A stretch of 45,584 nucleotides of DNA, from contig JAAEMR010000144.1 in the NCBI GenBank assembly GCA_024225395.1, positions 1-45,584 of the forward strand, written 5' to 3'. This stretch comes from Gammaproteobacteria bacterium (GTDB taxonomy: Bacteria; Pseudomonadota; Gammaproteobacteria; GCA-001735895). The notes beneath the pieces were generated by a model that searched no databases, was not told where the DNA came from, and was given only the letters and a program-made list of their open reading frames with translations. The position numbers and the translations under genes are program-made. Positions 8,214 through 17,628 of this stretch are shown here, one piece after another; position 1 is the stretch's first letter, and every line of letters starts with the position of its first letter.

Positions 8214-9521
8214 ATGACCACACGCCCTTTCAATAAGAAAAAAATTCTGCTGATCTTACCCCCAATTATTCTTGGCATAGTGATTATGGGTATTATGAAA
8301 AGCGGTAAACAGCCTCCTCAATTATCAGAAACTGGCGAACCGATTCGAGTTGTTCGTACCTTACAAGTTCAGAAAACTGATTTTATTCCGATTGCACGGG
8401 GTTATGGCGTCGTGCAACCGGCCCAGATATGGAAATCCATTGCACAGGTATCCGGTCGTATCATTTCGATGCACCCTCGTTTAAAAGATGGTGAAATCAT
8501 TCCGAAAGGCGATGTTCTGTTTCAGATTGATCCGGTCGATTACGAACTCAATCTGGCACAGGCTGAAACTCAGTTGGCAGAACTGGATGTACAATTATCC
8601 AACACTCAATCATCCTTGAAAATTGAACAGAGAAACCTGGCACTGGCAACTAAAGAACAACAACGCCTGCAAAAACTGGTCAAAAAAGGTAGTGTTTCCC
8701 AGAGCAGTGCCGACGCAGCTGAACGTACCATGTTAAGTTCAACGGCTCAGGTACAAAATCTGAAAAACAACTTATCCCTGATACCTTCTCAACGAAAGCT
8801 GCAACTGGCCAAAGTGACTCAGGCTCAACGTGATCTGGATAATTCCCGGGTCAAAGCGCCATTTAACCTTCGCATTGCCTCTTTAACTATTGAATCCGAT
8901 CAATACGTGACCAAAGGTCAGCTATTATTTTCCGGTGACTCGGTTGATAGGGTTGAGATTATCGCCCAGGTTTCGATGTCATCACTGAAAAATTTATTCT
9001 TTAACCATCCTGAAACACCCAGGGATATTCAAACTTTTTCCAAAAATATCTCCACTATTACCGGGTTTAATCCCACTGTGAATCTGGACATGGGTAAGGG
9101 GCAAATTGCTAACTGGAAAGCAAAGTTTTTACGCTTTAACGACAATGTTGATAGCCAGACACGCACCATGGGTGTTGTCGTTGAAGTTGATAATCCTCTA
9201 CAAAAAATTATACCGGGAAAACGTCCCCCATTATCAAAAGGCATGTTTGTCGAAGTAGAAATTGCCGGGTATCCACAATCAGACAGCATCGTGGTTCCAC
9301 GTTCTTCGATAAGAAATGCAAGTGCCTATACCGTTGACGCAGAGAACCGACTGGAAGTGCGTGCGATACAAAAACGGTACGATCAGGGCAACCAGAGCAT
9401 CATCAAAAATGGGCTGAAAGATGGCGACTTACTGGTATTAACCGATTTAATACCTGCCGTTAAGGGCATGTTGCTGAAACCGGTCAAATCGACTGAAGCC
9501 AACCTTCCCGGCGGAGAGTAA
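8214..9521 (+). CDS. RND efflux periplasmic adaptor (membrane fusion protein, HlyD/AcrA type)
   Basis: Adaptor that links an inner-membrane RND pump to an outer-membrane channel. Seen: a basic N-terminus and one membrane anchor (residues about 9-25) without a lipoprotein Cys, a lipoyl-like half (GYGVVQPAQIWKSIAQVSGRI), a long alpha-helical hairpin (about 110-205, rich in Q, L and A, with an internal KLVKKGSVSQSSAD turn), the second lipoyl half NSRVKAPFNLRIASL, and beta-barrel and membrane-proximal parts with PLSKGMFVEVEI and VVPRSSIRN. The 435-residue length is normal. The pump gene starts 3 bases after its stop. Substrate is unknown. No TolC-like gene is nearby, so an unlinked channel is expected. 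Confidence 0.92.
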   Translation: MTTRPFNKKKILLILPPIILGIVIMGIMKSGKQPPQLSETGEPIRVVRTLQVQKTDFIPIARGYGVVQPAQIWKSIAQVSGRIISMHPRLKDGEIIPKGDVLFQIDPVDYELNLAQAETQLAELDVQLSNTQSSLKIEQRNLALATKEQQRLQKLVKKGSVSQSSADAAERTMLSSTAQVQNLKNNLSLIPSQRKLQLAKVTQAQRDLDNSRVKAPFNLRIASLTIESDQYVTKGQLLFSGDSVDRVEIIAQVSMSSLKNLFFNHPETPRDIQTFSKNISTITGFNPTVNLDMGKGQIANWKAKFLRFNDNVDSQTRTMGVVVEVDNPLQKIIPGKRPPLSKGMFVEVEIAGYPQSDSIVVPRSSIRNASAYTVDAENRLEVRAIQKRYDQGNQSIIKNGLKDGDLLVLTDLIPAVKGMLLKPVKSTEANLPGGE

Positions 9522-9524
9522 ACC

Positions 9525-12500
9525 ATGATTAAGTGGTATACCCAACACCCTACCGCTGCCAATCTTACGATGCTGGCGGTCATCATTCTGGGTTTAATTA
9601 GCCTACCAAACCTGCAACGCGAAACTTTTCCACGCATTAGCAATGACAAAGTTAGCATTCAGGTGATTTACCCGGGTTCCACCGCGGAAGACGTCGAAGA
9701 TGCTATTTGTAGACGACTGGAAGATAGCCTGGAAAGCATTTCCGATCTGGACGAAATGATCTGTGAAGCTTCAGAAGGCTTTGGTAAAGCCACGGCCGTG
9801 ATGATTGAAGGCAGCAAGATGGAGCGCTTTCTGGATGATGTAAATTCGGCAGTCGATGCCATCACTGATTTTCCCGACCAGGCCGAATCACCTGTTGTTG
9901 AGGAACTTGGCCGAACCGATGCAGTGGTATCCGTGGCCATCACCGGTCCGGAAGACCCTGTCATTCTTAAAGCTTATGCTGAAGATGTAAAACTTCGGTT
10001 ACTGGCCACGGCCGAAATAGCCAATATCGTCATTGATGGTTTCTCTGATCATCAAATTCGCGTCGAGATAGCTGCAGCTCGGTTACGTCAATACAGCCTG
10101 TCCCTGGCCGATATTGCCAGCATTATGCAAAATCAAAGCGTGAGTACGCCCGCCGGACGACTGGAAAGTGATCAGGAAGATATCCTGTTACGCTTTGATG
10201 ATCAGCGAAAAACGGTCAGCCAGGTGGGTAAGCTGGTGGTCATTTCGGGTAAAACCGGCGCTGCTATACGATTACATGACATAGCCACCATCACTGATCG
10301 TTTTGACCGTGATGAAACACGCATCCTGTTCAATAATGAACGCGCTGCCATTTTGAATATCACCAAAACTCAGTCTCAGGATATTCTAAAATCTTTAAGC
10401 GATGTAAAAAACTTTATTGAACAGGAAAACAAACTCTCTCCAAAAGGCGTCAAGTTAACCCTGACTCAGGACAGAGCATCCGTCGTCCAGGATCGTCTGG
10501 ATATGATCATGCGCAATGGCGCTCAGGGATTACTGGCCGTCTTTGCAATACTCTGGTTATTCTTCAGTTTTCGCTACAGTTTCTGGGTCACCATGGGTTT
10601 ACCTATTTCTTTCCTGGGCGCAATGTTCGTCATTCCACTGGCAGGCATGACCATTAACATGATTACCCTGGTCGGTTTGCTTATCGGTGTCGGTCTGCTG
10701 ATGGATGATGCCATTGTTATTGCAGAAAATATTGCCGCCCGGCTGGAAAAAGGTGAACGAGCGATGCATGCCGCTATCGCCGGTGTGTCACAAGTTTTAC
10801 CTGGCATACTTTCTTCATTTACCACAACTCTACTGGTGTTCGGGTCGTTGGCCTTCATTACCGGTGAGATCGGGCAAATTCTACGCGTCATGCCCATCGT
10901 TTTAATCATCGTGTTAACGGTCAGTCTAATCGAGGCTTTTCTGGTTTTACCTTATCATCTCGGCCACAGCCTGAAGGGCATGGAAGATCGAAAACCATCA
11001 CGTTTTCGCGCAGGTTTCGAACATGGCTTTGATTTTTTCAGAGACAGACTGTTTCTGCCTTTATTGAGAAAAGCAGTCTCCTATCGTTACATGACACTGG
11101 GTATTGTGATCATGCTGATCATCACCGCGATCGCTTTACCGGTATCGGGTAAAATAAAATTTGTCGGTTTTCCTCCAACCGATGGGGATATTCTCGAAGC
11201 CCGTTTACTACTGCCCCAGGGTACGCCACTATCAATTACCGAATCGATCGTAAAGCGGATTCAACAGTCAGCCAGGAATATTAATAAAGAGTTTAAACCT
11301 AAACAGCCTGACCAACAAAATCTGGTGAATAATATCACCATTATTTATGGGCAGAATCCAGATGCCTATGAATCCGGCCCTCATGTAGCCCGTATCATTG
11401 TTGACCTGCTCAGTGCAGAAGTCAGAAACACCAGTATCGATGAATTTCGTGCAGCCTGGCGAGAAGAAACCGGTGAACTGGCGGATGTTATTTCACTAAA
11501 ATACACCGAACCCGCCATTGGACCGGGTGGTCGCGCTATTGAAGTCAGGTTAAAAGGCGAAGATTTACATCAGTTAAAACTGGCCTCCCATGAAATGCAG
11601 GACTGGTTTAAGAGCTATGCCGGAGTCATAGACGTAAGTGATGACTTACGCCCCGGAAAGCGTGAACTGCATGTTCGACTGAAACAATCTGCCGGTGTAC
11701 TTGGGATTAATGCCAACATGGTTTCAAGCCAGATCAGGGCCGGTTTCCAGGGCATTCAAATTGATGAATTTCCTGTCGGTGCTGAAACTTATGAAGTCGA
11801 CCTTCGCCTGGCAGCTTCTGATCGCCTGTCGGCTGATGACCTGGAACAATTAACCATTACCGGCCCCAATGGTAGCCAGATACCACTACCCAATGTCGCC
11901 ATAATTGAAGAAGTTCGTGGCTGGGCTCGCATAAACCGTGTTGACCGCAAACGCACAATTACGGTTTACGGAGATGTTCAACGGGAAATCGTCAATTCTC
12001 AGGAACTGCTGGGGCTGGCAGCTAAAGATATTTATACCAAGGTCCAGCAAAAATACCCAGGTGTCAGGATTGATACTCAGGGTGAAAGTCAGAACTCGGC
12101 AAAAACCGGAAAATCGATAGTCAGAAATGTAGCTCTCGGCATGATCGGCGTATATATTTTACTGGCACTGCAATTTCGAGGATATGCAGCGCCACTTACC
12201 GTCATGGTCGTTATTCCAACCGCCCTGATAGGCGTGATGTTTGGACATTATGCGCTGGGGCTGGACTTGACCATGCCCAGTATCATCGGCATGGCATCAT
12301 TGTTTGGCGTGGTAGTGAATGACTCAATATTACTGGTCGTATTTATCCGCGAAGCTCGAGACTCGGGAGTCGACACACTGAAAGCCGCCATCGAAGCCGG
12401 GCGGTCCCGATTCCGCCCTATTCTATTAACATCTATAACCACCATCGCCGGTTTGACCCCCTTGTTAACTGAAACCAGTTTACAGGCTCAAATTTTAATT

Positions 12501-12635
12501 CCAATGGCTGCATCTCTGGCTTTCGGATTAACCTCTGCAACCATCACCGCTTTATTCCTGGTGCCATCTTTGTATTGCATACTGGATGACTTTAACGCGC
12601 TGGGACAGTTACACGCTGAAGAGGATGAGTCGTAA
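9525..12635 (+). CDS. RND family efflux pump, inner-membrane subunit (AcrB/HAE1-like)
   Basis: Proton-driven efflux permease with 12 predicted membrane helices in the RND pattern: one N-terminal helix (about 10-28), a large periplasmic loop, a block of helices (about 330-540), a second loop and the last block (about 865-1020). The two adjacent acidic residues of the proton relay are present in TM4 (GLLMDDAIV, Asp394-Asp395). The family motif GVVVNDSILLVVF in the second half lacks the Lys of AcrB, as in many HAE1-type pumps of unknown substrate. N-terminal PNLQRETFPRISNDKVSIQV and YPGSTAEDVED are typical of this broad group. It forms one operon with the adaptor upstream. Confidence 0.94.
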   Translation: MIKWYTQHPTAANLTMLAVIILGLISLPNLQRETFPRISNDKVSIQVIYPGSTAEDVEDAICRRLEDSLESISDLDEMICEASEGFGKATAVMIEGSKMERFLDDVNSAVDAITDFPDQAESPVVEELGRTDAVVSVAITGPEDPVILKAYAEDVKLRLLATAEIANIVIDGFSDHQIRVEIAAARLRQYSLSLADIASIMQNQSVSTPAGRLESDQEDILLRFDDQRKTVSQVGKLVVISGKTGAAIRLHDIATITDRFDRDETRILFNNERAAILNITKTQSQDILKSLSDVKNFIEQENKLSPKGVKLTLTQDRASVVQDRLDMIMRNGAQGLLAVFAILWLFFSFRYSFWVTMGLPISFLGAMFVIPLAGMTINMITLVGLLIGVGLLMDDAIVIAENIAARLEKGERAMHAAIAGVSQVLPGILSSFTTTLLVFGSLAFITGEIGQILRVMPIVLIIVLTVSLIEAFLVLPYHLGHSLKGMEDRKPSRFRAGFEHGFDFFRDRLFLPLLRKAVSYRYMTLGIVIMLIITAIALPVSGKIKFVGFPPTDGDILEARLLLPQGTPLSITESIVKRIQQSARNINKEFKPKQPDQQNLVNNITIIYGQNPDAYESGPHVARIIVDLLSAEVRNTSIDEFRAAWREETGELADVISLKYTEPAIGPGGRAIEVRLKGEDLHQLKLASHEMQDWFKSYAGVIDVSDDLRPGKRELHVRLKQSAGVLGINANMVSSQIRAGFQGIQIDEFPVGAETYEVDLRLAASDRLSADDLEQLTITGPNGSQIPLPNVAIIEEVRGWARINRVDRKRTITVYGDVQREIVNSQELLGLAAKDIYTKVQQKYPGVRIDTQGESQNSAKTGKSIVRNVALGMIGVYILLALQFRGYAAPLTVMVVIPTALIGVMFGHYALGLDLTMPSIIGMASLFGVVVNDSILLVVFIREARDSGVDTLKAAIEAGRSRFRPILLTSITTIAGLTPLLTETSLQAQILIPMAASLAFGLTSATITALFLVPSLYCILDDFNALGQLHAEEDES

Positions 12636-12841: not shown

Positions 12842-13912
12842 TCATTTCTGGTATAAGAAATGCCCGTTACCATAACTTTTTCCATCATTGGGAATGAACA
12901 TGGCCTTGCATAAACTGAAATATTTATTCCAGTTATCCACCTCATCGGTGGTTAAATATTCAGGGTAGATCTGATCAATAGATTCCCAGAAACGCTTATG
13001 CCACTCATCCAGTGTTTTCCAGTAATTCATCCCATTGACAAACCAGCTATTTTTAAACGTTAAGTGGGTATTATGTCGCGGCGGCTCACTCAATGGCCAA
13101 ATATGTGCACCAGGGTAATATGCCCCCATCAGGGTATCTTCAGAATTTAGAAAAGCAGGCAGTACATCAACTGAAACAATACAGTGATGCATACATAAAC
13201 CTCCCGGTTTCAACAGCCGGGACAACTTTTTCTGCAATAAATCAATATTACTGACGTGTTCCAGAAACCCGATAGATATGACCCTGTCAAAAGATTCGAG
13301 CTCAATACCGAGAGAATCAACATCATCAAAATAGGCCTGAATTAACCTGAACCTGAGATGATCAAAATTATTATCGGGACTCATTAACTCTTTTCTGATG
13401 TAACCAGTTTGGACTTCACTTGGATTTATTCCAGTAACCTTAATATTGGGATAAGTTTCCAGCAGATATTTTGACAATCCTCCAAAACCACAACCCAGGT
13501 CTATAATAGACTGACCATCCTGAATATCGGCACGTTCAACAAGCAATTCATATTTTTTCATTTGCGCCTGTTCCAGAGAGATATCTTTCAATTCCGGACC
13601 GTAAGAATCAACACCAAAACAACCCATTGTATAAGCCAGATAATCTTTATCCAGGAACGCACGATAAACATGGTATTCCTCATTATAATGACTCAGCGAT
13701 TCAGGCCGGGTTTCGCTTTTGGATATATCGCCTTCAAATGAATTTAGCCCGTAACTTTCGGTCAGATTTTTATTTCCCTGCCAGCGCTCATATTCACGCC
13801 CAAAATACCGGGCCAATTGTTTTTCGAATTTCAATACCTCAGCAGAACCGTAGGGATGGACACCATGATTAATCAGCTGTTGAGAAATATTCATCATTGA
13901 TTTTTTATTCAT
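12842..13912 (-). CDS. SAM-dependent methyltransferase of the cyclopropane-fatty-acid synthase class
   Basis: Class I SAM methyltransferase, 356 residues. Seen: an N-terminal alpha-helical part (1-80), then YLAYTMGCFGVD and ISLEQAQMKKYELL, which match the segment before the SAM site in CFA synthases and mycolic-acid methyltransferases, then the SAM motif SIIDLGCGFGGLSKYL (about 135-150), VTGINPSEVQTGYI, and FDRVISIGFLEHV with KLLKPGG-like RLLKPGGLCMHH. The C-terminal bicarbonate-site motif of classical CFA synthase is not obvious, so simple methylation rather than cyclopropanation is possible. The ATG overlaps the ketosynthase stop in ATGA, so it is translated with the KAS and ACP genes. The acceptor is presumably an acyl chain; this is inferred from class and neighbours. 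Confidence 0.85.
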   Translation of the reverse strand: MNKKSMMNISQQLINHGVHPYGSAEVLKFEKQLARYFGREYERWQGNKNLTESYGLNSFEGDISKSETRPESLSHYNEEYHVYRAFLDKDYLAYTMGCFGVDSYGPELKDISLEQAQMKKYELLVERADIQDGQSIIDLGCGFGGLSKYLLETYPNIKVTGINPSEVQTGYIRKELMSPDNNFDHLRFRLIQAYFDDVDSLGIELESFDRVISIGFLEHVSNIDLLQKKLSRLLKPGGLCMHHCIVSVDVLPAFLNSEDTLMGAYYPGAHIWPLSEPPRHNTHLTFKNSWFVNGMNYWKTLDEWHKRFWESIDQIYPEYLTTDEVDNWNKYFSLCKAMFIPNDGKSYGNGHFLYQK

Positions 13913-15123
13913 GTTGAATATCTTTTTAATGCGACCACAGCATTTAATCCACCAAACGCAAACGAATTTGACAAGGCATTATTTATCGTTTGATGACGAG
14001 CCTTATTCGGTACGTAATCCAGATTACATCGCTCATCTGCCCGGGTGAAATTTGCTGTGGGAGGAATAATACCGTGATGAACGGCCAGCGTGGTGGCCAC
14101 TACTTCTAAAGCACTTGATGCACCGAGTGCATGGCCATGCATTGACTTGGTCGACGACACGGCAAGCTTTTGGGCATGACCTTGGAACAACCGGTTAATG
14201 GCTTCAGTCTCAGCAATATCATTGGCCTGTGTTGCCGTGCCATGGGCGTTGATATAGTCGACTTCACCCGGGTTAAGTGCTGCATGCTCTAATGCTTTTC
14301 CCATCGCTTTTACGATACCCGAGACATTGGGTCGCGTTATATGATGCGCATCAGAGGTCATTCCACAACCCGATAATTCCGCATAAATCTTTGCTCCCCG
14401 GGCTTTAGCATGCTCTTCTGTTTCCAGCAATAACATGCCAGCACCTTCCCCTAAAATCATACCATCACGATCAAAACTAAAAGGTCGGCAGGTATCATTC
14501 GACACTACCCTGATAGCATCCCACGACTTTAATAAACCATAAGTAAAAGGTGCATCGGTTGCGCCTACAAGAGCAACGTCGACCAGACCTGATTTAATCA
14601 TACTGATACCTTGAATAATGGCATGTGCACCTGAGGCACAGGCACTGGATAGCACGAAAGCAGGCCCTGTGATACCGAGGTGCAAACTGACCATGCTGGC
14701 AGCGGCACTAGGCATTCCTTTGGGAATAGTTAGAGGGTGAACACGCGAACTATTTTGACGGTAGAGTCGCTCATAGGTAATTTCATCGGTATGTTTTCCA
14801 CCGCAGCCACTACCAATGATAACAGCCGCATCGGTAATCGCTTTATCCCCGGCACTCAAACCCGCATCTTCTATCGCTTCCTTCGAGGCCACCACGGCTA
14901 GCTGTGAAAACCGGTCGAGCAGAGAAAGTTCATCTGTGGAAAAGTAGTCTTCCGGCTGATAATCAGGCAATACAGCCCCAACGGAGATTTTCACCCCGTC
15001 AACTGCAGGAACTAAAGGTTTAATTGCAGGACGACCAGCGACTAACTCATCCCAGAAAGAAGAAACATTCAAACCCAGAGCTGAAACTGATCCCAGTCCG
15101 GTAATCATGACCCGACGATTCAT
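13909..15123 (-). CDS. Beta-ketoacyl-ACP synthase (KAS II/FabF-like)
   Basis: Condensing enzyme that extends an acyl-ACP by two carbons with malonyl-ACP. The 404 residues cover the full thiolase fold. Catalytic residues are all visible: Cys162 in VLSSACASGAH, His294 in YINAHGTATQAND, Lys326 and His331 in STKSMHGHALGA, and the closing NSFAFGGLNAVV. It therefore should be active, not a chain-length factor. It is not the housekeeping fabF context (no fabD, fabG or pabC). It sits between a dedicated ACP (21 bases upstream) and a CFA-like methyltransferase (4-base overlap), so a specialised acyl product is likely. Confidence 0.93.
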   Translation of the reverse strand: MNRRVMITGLGSVSALGLNVSSFWDELVAGRPAIKPLVPAVDGVKISVGAVLPDYQPEDYFSTDELSLLDRFSQLAVVASKEAIEDAGLSAGDKAITDAAVIIGSGCGGKHTDEITYERLYRQNSSRVHPLTIPKGMPSAAASMVSLHLGITGPAFVLSSACASGAHAIIQGISMIKSGLVDVALVGATDAPFTYGLLKSWDAIRVVSNDTCRPFSFDRDGMILGEGAGMLLLETEEHAKARGAKIYAELSGCGMTSDAHHITRPNVSGIVKAMGKALEHAALNPGEVDYINAHGTATQANDIAETEAINRLFQGHAQKLAVSSTKSMHGHALGASSALEVVATTLAVHHGIIPPTANFTRADERCNLDYVPNKARHQTINNALSNSFAFGGLNAVVALKRYST

Positions 15124-15144
15124 TATTTGTTAATACCGTATCGT

Positions 15145-15369
15145 TTAACGAGAGATATCGCCTAAGTTCTGTAAAATATCATTAACGGTAACAATGGATG
15201 GAATAAGTTCATTGGGAATTTCTATATCGAAAGCTTCTTCAAGTTCGAATAACACGGAGACTGCCTTTAATGAATCTATGCCTAAATCAATTAGTTTAGT
15301 TTCTGATTTCACATCCTCTACATTACAAGGCGCTATTTTAGCGATGGTTTCGGCTACTTTATTTAACAT
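15145..15369 (-). CDS. Acyl carrier protein (dedicated)
   Basis: A 74-residue acidic carrier protein. The phosphopantetheine attachment motif is clear: LGIDSLKAVSVL with Ser33. The rest (ETKLIDLGIDS, LEEAFDIEIPNEL) follows the ACP four-helix pattern. It differs from the usual AcpP consensus (EDSLDTVEL replaced by IDSLKAVSVLFELEE), as expected for a secondary ACP serving a specialised pathway. First gene of the ACP-KAS-methyltransferase operon. No strong ribosome-binding site precedes the ATG. Divergent from the rpfF-like gene. Confidence 0.92.
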   Translation of the reverse strand: MLNKVAETIAKIAPCNVEDVKSETKLIDLGIDSLKAVSVLFELEEAFDIEIPNELIPSIVTVNDILQNLGDISR

Positions 15370-15697
15370 TATGGTAATAACTTAAAATTATGCTTAAAAC
15401 TTAAAATTATGGTTAAACAGCAGGCCGTTTAAGCAGACTGCAAACTGTAACATATCCTCCCTAAACTTCTTATTTCCAGGGCAATTATCCACTCGATCTT
15501 ATTTATAACAAATATAATCCTTTATGCCATTCATTAATAGACATAAATATATCCTGTGAAATATTTATCAAAATTTTTAGTATACATATCAATTAGTTTG
15601 AGTATCTTTTTAATTTAAGTTATAAAGTAAATTCTATAACTTATTTATAATTAAAAAATCAACACCCTTACAGGTAAAAGTATAGTAAATCCGGCAC
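15370..15697. promoter_or_regulatory. AT-rich divergent promoter region between the ACP operon and the rpfF-like gene
   Basis: A 328-base spacer without an ORF. Next to the ACP start a 14-base unit AACTTAAAATTATG is repeated directly at 15379-15392 and 15398-15411 (19-base period). Nearer the rpfF-like gene, TAAGTTATA (15616-15624) and TATAACTTA (15635-15643) form an inverted repeat with a 10-base spacer, again 19 bases from arm to arm. The octamer ATAACTTA occurs on both sides (15377 and 15636). These could be operator sites for one regulator that controls both transcripts, although AT-rich DNA makes such matches easier by chance. Confidence 0.4.
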
Positions 15698-16741
15698 ATG
15701 AATATAAAAAATAAAGCCTCTACAGCATGGTCGAGCAATAAAAATGTTGAGAAAAATCAAAACCCGGTCCGATATACCCAGTTCAGCACCCGATATGATT
15801 CTGAAACCGGAGCCATCTGGTGCTGGATGCAACCTGATCCTCGTCCGTGCATCAATACCCCCCTTATTGATGAACTTACTCAGCTTCAGCAGCAGCTCAC
15901 CAACACTTATCAGTCACCAAGCAGTAATTCAATCTGGTCTTTTAAACACCTGATACTCGCTTCTAAAACTCCCGGGATTTACAACCTTGGGGGCGACCTG
16001 GACTTATTTATGCACTGCATTGAGAATAACCAGCAGGAGAAGCTCAGGCAATATGCTCACAAATGCATACATTTAGTGCACCAAAACATTTCCAACCTGA
16101 ATCTACCAATTTCCATGATTTCCCTGGTTCAGGGACAGGCTTTAGGCGGAGGATTTGAGACCGCACTATCCTGCGATACCATCATTGCTGAACGCAGTTC
16201 TCAAATGGGATTCCCTGAAATCATGTTTAACATGTTTCCAGGTATGGGTGCTTACCATTTACTAGCTCGTAAAGTGGGTTCAACTCTGGCTGAGCGGATT
16301 ATATTAAGCGGGGAAACTTATAGCGCTGGCCAACTCTATGATATGGGCATTATCGACATACTGGCAGAAGATGGAACAGGCCAACAGGAAACAGATGACT
16401 ACATGAAAAGCCACAACCGGTCACACAACACTATTCACAACATAAAAAAAATTCGTCGAATGATTCACCCGATTACCAGCAAAAGTTTATACGATGTTGT
16501 CGACCTATGGGTTCAGGCCGCTATGAATATGAGCCAGAAAGATTTATCAAAAATGAAACGTCTGTTACAGCTACAAAAAGACCTAAAAGACAGTAAAACC
16601 ATCGAGATAGAAGATAACGTGTTAATTCCACGCCGCGGCGAGTGGCGTAAGGTTAAAGATGTAAATTTCCCCTTAACCACTCACCTGGGTGATAATGTGC
16701 TGCACAACAGAAGAAAAAATGATACTCGAAGACACGCATAA
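15698..16741 (+). CDS. rpfF: RpfF-like crotonase, probable DSF-family signal synthase
   Basis: Enoyl-CoA hydratase/crotonase-fold enzyme, 347 residues, closest in my recognition to RpfF of Xanthomonas. RpfF converts 3-hydroxyacyl-ACP to cis-2-unsaturated acyl-ACP and releases the free fatty acid signal. Seen: YNLGGDLDLFMHCIE (oxyanion region), SLVQGQALGGGFETALSCDTII with Glu154, and MGFPEIMFNMFPGMGAY with Glu174. These two Glu residues correspond to the catalytic pair Glu141 and Glu161 of RpfF. The N-terminus is about 25 residues longer than RpfF. The C-terminus carries an extra 50 residues or so with a basic tail (RRGEW...FPLTTHLGDN...HNRRKNDTRRH). It is divergent from the ACP operon. No rpfC or rpfG homologue adjoins it. 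Confidence 0.85.
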   Translation: MNIKNKASTAWSSNKNVEKNQNPVRYTQFSTRYDSETGAIWCWMQPDPRPCINTPLIDELTQLQQQLTNTYQSPSSNSIWSFKHLILASKTPGIYNLGGDLDLFMHCIENNQQEKLRQYAHKCIHLVHQNISNLNLPISMISLVQGQALGGGFETALSCDTIIAERSSQMGFPEIMFNMFPGMGAYHLLARKVGSTLAERIILSGETYSAGQLYDMGIIDILAEDGTGQQETDDYMKSHNRSHNTIHNIKKIRRMIHPITSKSLYDVVDLWVQAAMNMSQKDLSKMKRLLQLQKDLKDSKTIEIEDNVLIPRRGEWRKVKDVNFPLTTHLGDNVLHNRRKNDTRRHA

Positions 16742-17362: not shown

Positions 17363-17506
17363 ATGAGTAATAAAATAAACTATATAGATCTGGATGATGA
17401 CGATGATAAGACGGTCTTTCAAACAGAAGAAGACCGCAGAAAACTGGAAATGGAAATTTCTGGGCTGGGCGATGATGATACCACCGAGGTAGATATCACC
17501 GCTTAA
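17363..17506 (+). CDS. Small acidic protein, 47 residues
   Basis: A short ORF with ATG at 17363 and TAA at 17504-17506. The product starts MSNKINYIDLDDDDDK, continues with a charged middle (EEDRRKLEMEI) and ends in GLGDDDTTEVDITA. It is strongly acidic with a helical-looking centre. The ribosome-binding site is weak (AAGAGCAG upstream). The codon pattern and sharp composition suggest a real gene, but I do not recognise the family. It stands alone between the divergent zinc-ribbon gene and the PDZ gene. Confidence 0.5.
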   Translation: MSNKINYIDLDDDDDKTVFQTEEDRRKLEMEISGLGDDDTTEVDITA

Positions 17507-17628
17507 TTGCCCCCTTTACAACCATACTGGCAACACGTTTTTTGATTAACCGATACTCTGCATTTATAAAGTGTAGAGCCCGGTTTATACTCACCGCTAT
17601 TAATTGAGAGACTCATGACAACCCGGCA

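Follow-up and report, generated by a model that had tools for sequence, protein, structure and literature searches.

An RpfF-type crotonase facing acyl carrier protein, ketosynthase and methyltransferase genes as a putative unit for the synthesis of a modified DSF-like fatty acid

Signals of the diffusible signal factor (DSF) family are regarded as diverted from primary fatty-acid synthesis, while their structural variety is ascribed to the primers and to the synthase RpfF. Known DSF loci take 3-hydroxyacyl-acyl carrier protein (ACP) from this primary pathway, and RpfF and Bcam0581 act on it as both dehydratase and thioesterase (PMC4542539). An additional contribution is made in Xanthomonas campestris by FabG2 (XCC0416), a non-housekeeping reductase of fatty-acid synthesis that supplies DSF precursors and is not required for DSF (PMC5941067). 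The locus considered here lies in a stretch of 45,584 nucleotides (contig JAAEMR010000144.1, the whole of which is called below the window) from a gammaproteobacterial genome designated G000. It comprises a gene of an RpfF-type crotonase and, divergent from it, genes of an ACP, a FabF-like beta-ketoacyl-ACP synthase (KS) and an S-adenosylmethionine (SAM)-dependent methyltransferase (MT) of the cyclopropane fatty acid (CFA) synthase class, the last three being referred to as the cassette. As in the rpfF-rpfC-rpfG locus of X. campestris, the crotonase has both catalytic Glu residues, and in 13 relatives the cassette stands within rpfF/rpfC/rpfG islands; unlike that locus, ACP, KS and MT are added here, and the window lineage is devoid of RpfC and RpfG. 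With FabG2 the locus would share the use of accessory enzymes of fatty-acid synthesis for feeding DSF precursors, but FabG2 is encoded by a lone and distant reductase gene, whereas here ACP and KS are physically tied to rpfF and accompanied by a methyltransferase. No description of ACP-KS-methyltransferase (or cyclopropane) genes attached to rpfF was found in the open-licence literature. The cassette recurs in signal-sensor islands of no fewer than 13 further bacteria, which suggests that a modified signal molecule has yet to be described, and the four genes of the window rather probably make up a unit for the synthesis of a modified fatty acid resembling DSF, in which a dedicated ACP/KS pathway would be followed by the MT and then by RpfF-mediated release.

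The MT was searched for in 143 relatives, in 369 genomes across the class, in 398 across the phylum and in all available genomes of the two hit families, f81 and f154, both being gammaproteobacterial families other than that of the window. Strong homologues were registered in 14 genomes besides G000: in G001 of the same genus, in four members of f81 and in nine of f154. Since scores in the class sample fall from 518 to 138 bits at the next-best matches, this MT family is well separated, and it is rare. Plasmid spread was also considered and gave only distant CMAS-family matches, with approximately 31% identity or less among the matches listed. All 13 MT-bearing genomes of f81 and f154 have rpfC and/or rpfG close by on the same contig. 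The KS gene adjoins that of the MT in 12 of them, counting G408, and in G426 it sits on another contig end; an ACP was found wherever the contig runs on past the KS. The usual order is rpfF> <rpfC ACP> KS> <MT, followed by rpfG, which may point either way. G408 departs from it (KS and ACP, rpfC, MT, rpfF), so that rpfC and ACP fall between KS and MT, and the set is nevertheless retained. According to the domain check, RpfC of the islands has the composition HisKA-HATPase-REC-Hpt and RpfG is a REC-HD protein; this pair is also on record for a sulfur oxidiser from a vent (PMC4136832). Among the 43 genomes of both families RpfF is present in all 13 that bear the MT (once as a contig-end fragment) against 11 of the 30 MT-less ones (Fisher p=1.0e-4, or p=8.5e-4 if the fragment is not counted), though the genomes are related and these values are only a guide. 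Thus the co-occurrence anticipated by the sequence-only reading was observed both in G001, where the four genes stand together, and in the rpfF-rpfC(-rpfG) islands of the 13 other genomes, and recurrence in at least 14 genomes excludes mere chance neighbourhood.

Cassette-less islands exist in the same family f154. In G434, G438 and G441 rpfF, rpfC and rpfG are directly together without ACP, KS or MT, and the islands of G434 and G438 adjoin the same valS gene as the cassette-bearing islands of G398, G424 and G431. RpfFs of these three genomes belong to lineages other than those of the cassette RpfFs, which form one clade (support 100/97) with two apparent losses included. These are G430 (L171), where cassette-type RpfF is accompanied by a broken rpfC and the cassette is missing, and G411 (L172), which has neither rpfC nor the cassette; both look like decay of the island. 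A different neighbourhood was registered in gammaproteobacterial metagenome-assembled genomes (MAGs; L005, L007, L009-L012 and L052, as well as L013 and L083 in part), in which rpfF stands beside an ACP gene and a gene of another KS, 455 aa in length. Several of these islands also have an rpfC-type kinase. As in the cassette-bearing islands, ACP and KS are placed beside rpfF, but there is no methyltransferase and the KS, with approximately 30% identity, represents a separate lineage. RpfFs of L005, L007 and L009-L012, L052 left out, are sister to the cassette RpfFs (98/92). Judged by sequence, ACP and KS have here been joined to rpfF in a second and separate way.

Assignment of the window crotonase to the RpfF type follows from several comparisons. 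It has the Pfam domain ECH_1, scores 355.9 bits with the NCBIfam model PRK08788 (cut-off 177) and has RpfF (7zq7, 3m6m) and Bcam0581 (5fus) as its closest PDB matches, extending by approximately 50 aa at the C-terminus past the aligned RpfF core. With the NCBIfam RpfF equivalog model it gives only 212 bits at a cut-off of 550; since RpfFs from canonical rpfFCG islands also stay below it (211-240 bits), this cut-off suits only close relatives of Xanthomonas RpfF. Glu154 and Glu174, in GGGFE and FPE motifs, are aligned with positions 157 and 177 in the 3m6m chain, which presumably correspond to E141 and E161 if the 305-residue chain carries a 16-residue tag. Both are kept in all RpfF-type rows of the alignment, save one row at 154. 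Window RpfF, X. campestris RpfF, Bcam0581 and island RpfFs make one clade against the genome's own enoyl-CoA hydratases (100/98, and 99/95 in a second tree), although the outgroup branches are long. Ordinary hydratase identity was therefore discarded on the basis of tree and profile scores, and by its sequence the enzyme is expected to make a cis-2-unsaturated fatty acid from 3-hydroxyacyl-ACP. Within the RpfFs it pairs with one RpfF of G141 (98/99). That gene (L047:7895-9137), whose product is 54% identical to window RpfF, is divergent from a lone ACP gene with no KS or MT beside it, and the contig ends inside rpfF; G141 has two more RpfF-like matches. Placement of window RpfF in one clade with the cassette RpfFs, as expected for vertical co-inheritance, was rejected by the approximately unbiased (AU) test (p=9e-6; p=1e-4 with L131 added), and so was its union with RpfFs of the congeners G006 and G007 (p=0.0015), p-values being flattered by the fact that the tested groups were partly picked after the first tree.

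The same congeners have ordinary rpfF-rpfC islands without the cassette. In G006 rpfG adjoins the island, while in G007 the island is spread over two contigs, the second one with rpfC and rpfG. The sequence-only reading had remarked that neither rpfC nor rpfG adjoins the window locus, and the genome-wide search extended this: no orthologue of RpfC was found in G000 or G001, where only generic kinase cores match from residue 183-187 on (32-48%), and none of RpfG, other HD-type regulators matching at 33-44% versus 79% between G006 and G007. Relocation of the two genes elsewhere in the window genome was rejected because no orthologue turned up. With both lost in this lineage, the connection of the cassette with RpfC/RpfG was not visible in the window. 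Nevertheless, in both G000 and G001 RpfF still faces ACP-KS-MT. Since window RpfF is of a different lineage according to the AU test, while the KSs belong to one clade, the association must have arisen or been transferred at least twice. A cassette that accompanies two RpfF lineages, and for which the sensors are dispensable, favours a biosynthetic rather than a regulatory link with RpfF, and these two features are the best evidence for it that the sequences provide. The window unit is RpfF plus cassette, and the relatives carry the cassette in complete DSF islands; because the sensor pair is absent from the window genome, the label of quorum sensing is not justified for the window itself.

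The sequence-only reading had listed, in divergent arrangement with a crotonase bearing both catalytic Glu residues, a secondary ACP with Ser33, a ketosynthase with a full triad and a methyltransferase of the CFA-synthase class, and all four open reading frames (ORFs) were recovered with these residues and domains (Table 1). ACP orthologues, 31-74% identical, accompany the KS in all relatives in which the contig extends further. In an alignment of seven KS orthologues C162, H294 and H331 do not vary. Its score with the FabF equivalog model (436.6 bits) is under the cut-off of 493.75, and it is 58-86% identical to cassette KSs of the relatives, with which it falls into one clade (100/99). The KS was also considered as the housekeeping FabF of the genome, but a separate FabF exists, 37% identical to it and located at C62 next to fabD/fabG-like genes. 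In G289 (L169:8713-10014) a KS that belongs to the cassette clade and shares 59% identity with that of the window was registered without ACP or MT; its gene is convergent with a GGDEF-EAL gene and adjoins dinB- and lexA-like genes. A KS of this type that is less closely related (495 bits) in G404 (L170, approximately 8860-11390) apparently has an ACP-like stretch and an alpha/beta-hydrolase near it, and this locus is possibly another specialised fatty-acid cluster. The MT combines a CMAS domain with the SAM-binding motif DLGCGFGGL. In the alignment of 15 family members with E. coli Cfa (translated from NC_000913.3), its E218, H243, I245 and Y331 correspond to E239, H266, I268 and Y317 of E. 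coli CFA synthase (CFAS) and are invariant in 15/15. The family resembles E. coli Cfa and mycolic CmaA1/MmaA2 in having a CMAS domain, the SAM motif and four bicarbonate-site residues out of five, but differs from them in the remaining residue, in low identity (approximately 20-30%), in an N-terminal region that is not Cfa-like and in the rpfF gene context.

Mycolic-acid cyclopropane synthases are thought to act on ACP-bound chains, and the substrate proposed here is similar. One can assume that the FabF-like KS would elongate acyl chains on the dedicated ACP, using FabD/FabG/FabA-type enzymes borrowed from primary metabolism, and that the MT would then put a SAM-derived carbon onto a cis double bond that stands isolated in the chain carried by the ACP. 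This step should precede RpfF, as the cis-2 bond made by the latter is an unlikely target because its conjugation in an alpha,beta-unsaturated thioester makes it poorly nucleophilic towards SAM. The product of the MT would most likely be a cyclopropane, otherwise a methyl branch. RpfF may dehydrate the modified 3-hydroxyacyl-ACP to the cis-2-enoyl form and then hydrolyse it, giving a carbon-modified cis-2-enoic acid. In the relatives this product is presumably sensed by the neighbouring RpfC/RpfG pair; in the window lineage it may have a different receptor or serve a different purpose. In essence this elaborates the earlier suggestion that the substrate may be assembled by a KS and on an ACP of its own and receive a methyl or cyclopropane carbon, which stays the best-supported reading, although its chemistry is inferred.

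Some of the data weigh against the proposed unit. Only two genomes, G000 and G001, stand for the window lineage, and the KS type is not used only with RpfF, because the KS of G289 stands alone beside a GGDEF-EAL gene. Other points concern the MT, in which Met (M96 in the window) replaces C139 of CFAS in all 15 members. In E. coli CFAS, residues C139, E239, H266, I268 and Y317 hold bicarbonate, two of the five contacts being made via backbone amides, and the C139S mutant retains 31% of catalytic efficiency (PMC3132707). Bicarbonate and its ligands have been described as essential for cyclopropane formation (PMC9821293). Since two contacts involve backbone amides, Met may be tolerated at this position, or the reaction may be changed. 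Moreover, plant benzylisoquinoline N-methyltransferases score as high as CFAS in phmmer and fold searches, and the fold model of the MT, which is of moderate confidence (pLDDT 67.6), does not separate the two groups. Coclaurine (CNMT) and tetrahydroprotoberberine (THPB-NMT) N-methyltransferases are even the top PDB matches by both sequence and fold, so that methylation of nitrogen or oxygen leading to a capped DSF-like product (e.g. a methyl ester or N-methylated amine) has to be considered. We find it quite improbable. The Glu-x-x-Glu-His motif of THPB-NMT (E204, E207, H208) is not reproduced: its first Glu, three residues before the shared one and known from the solved E204A mutant, is Gly in both the window MT and CFAS, while the His after the shared Glu varies, being Gln in some members. 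Equivalents of CFAS His266 and Tyr317 are invariant, and CNMT has Phe at the place of this Tyr. Because of these three differences from the N-methyltransferases, alignment data favour transfer of carbon to a double bond by the MT.

Two other explanations concern the connection with signalling. The cassette might simply be a regulatory neighbour, making a separate DSF-controlled specialised lipid while RpfF produces ordinary DSF from primary 3-hydroxyacyl-ACP. Its position in the relatives, between the rpfC sensor and the rpfG response regulator, is what one would expect for a target operon, and a FabF-like KS with an ACP could serve any specialised lipid. However, G000 and G001 have lost sensor and regulator while RpfF still faces the cassette, which is the reverse of the regulatory prediction, and in other MAGs rpfF likewise has a distinct ACP-KS pair beside it, the KS being of another type; this explanation is therefore regarded as unlikely. 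It is also conceivable, though improbable, that RpfF of the window lineage was recruited as a dehydratase/thioesterase of a lipid or antibiotic-like pathway whose non-signal product is perhaps exported by the resistance-nodulation-division (RND) pump encoded at 8214-12635. Absence of RpfC and RpfG orthologues from the window genome and the convergent location of pump and adaptor genes relative to the operon in both G000 and G001 agree with such recruitment, but the catalytic residues of RpfF are intact, and in the other families the pump is not beside the cassette and the sensor circuit is present.

If the four genes indeed form a biosynthetic unit for a modified DSF-like acid, some bacteria would possess an assembly line of their own for a signal that is private and chemically marked. 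Tentatively, and with somewhat less than even confidence, we propose a new class of DSF-family signals in gammaproteobacteria that have come to light chiefly through metagenomes, namely a cis-2-enoic acid with a cyclopropane or methyl modification, made with its own ACP, KS and MT, released by RpfF and in most lineages sensed by co-inherited RpfC, with at least one lineage being sensor-less. The four-gene set is a concrete object for expression, and the class of product to look for is defined. Signal specificity could be compared in a natural setting, as the rpf locus beside valS exists both with the cassette and without it, and its RpfF/RpfC lineages differ; a lineage in which the genes of synthesis were retained and the receptor was lost offers a further point of comparison.

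Table 1. Features of the four-gene locus, numbered from the first nucleotide of the window.
Feature	Position	Strand	Size	Remarks
RpfF-type crotonase	15698-16741	+	347 aa	putative cis-2-enoic fatty-acid signal synthase
Dedicated acyl carrier protein (ACP)	15145-15369	-	74 aa	phosphopantetheine Ser33 in GIDSL; Pfam PP-binding E=2e-11
FabF-like beta-ketoacyl-ACP synthase (KS, KS404)	13909-15123	-	404 aa	triad C162/H294/H331; Pfam ketoacyl-synthase
CFA/CMA-synthase-class SAM methyltransferase (MT)	12842-13912	-	356 aa	Pfam CMAS E=3.5e-30, 105.7 bits
Divergent intergenic region	15370-15697	no strand	328 bp	26% GC, AT-rich

The ACP-KS-MT genes run from 15369 to 12842 of the minus strand, and the intergenic region separating them from rpfF is probably a control region shared by both transcription units. 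Alignment with G001 revealed in it a nearly invariant AT-rich block at approximately 15590-15636, and an inverted repeat is present at 15616-15643, its right arm being only partly kept in G001. Together (15590-15643) they represent a candidate operator or promoter. The promoter scan of the intergenic region gave no clear excess of sigma-70 sites (6 found versus 2.6 expected). The sequence-only reading had described KS and MT as translationally coupled. The ATGA overlap of the two genes exists in the window only if the first ATG is taken as the MT start, and it is not conserved: in G001 the start of the orthologue corresponds to M10 and lies 14 bp past the KS stop, so that coupling appears doubtful from the sequences. 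Genes of a membrane-fusion protein/adaptor and an RND pump pair (8214-12635) are convergent to the MT gene in G000 and G001, and the pump may or may not export the product. On the other side of the locus, downstream of rpfF, a gene of a zinc-ribbon-like small protein is followed by a small acidic Asp-rich ORF of approximately 47 aa (17364-17507).

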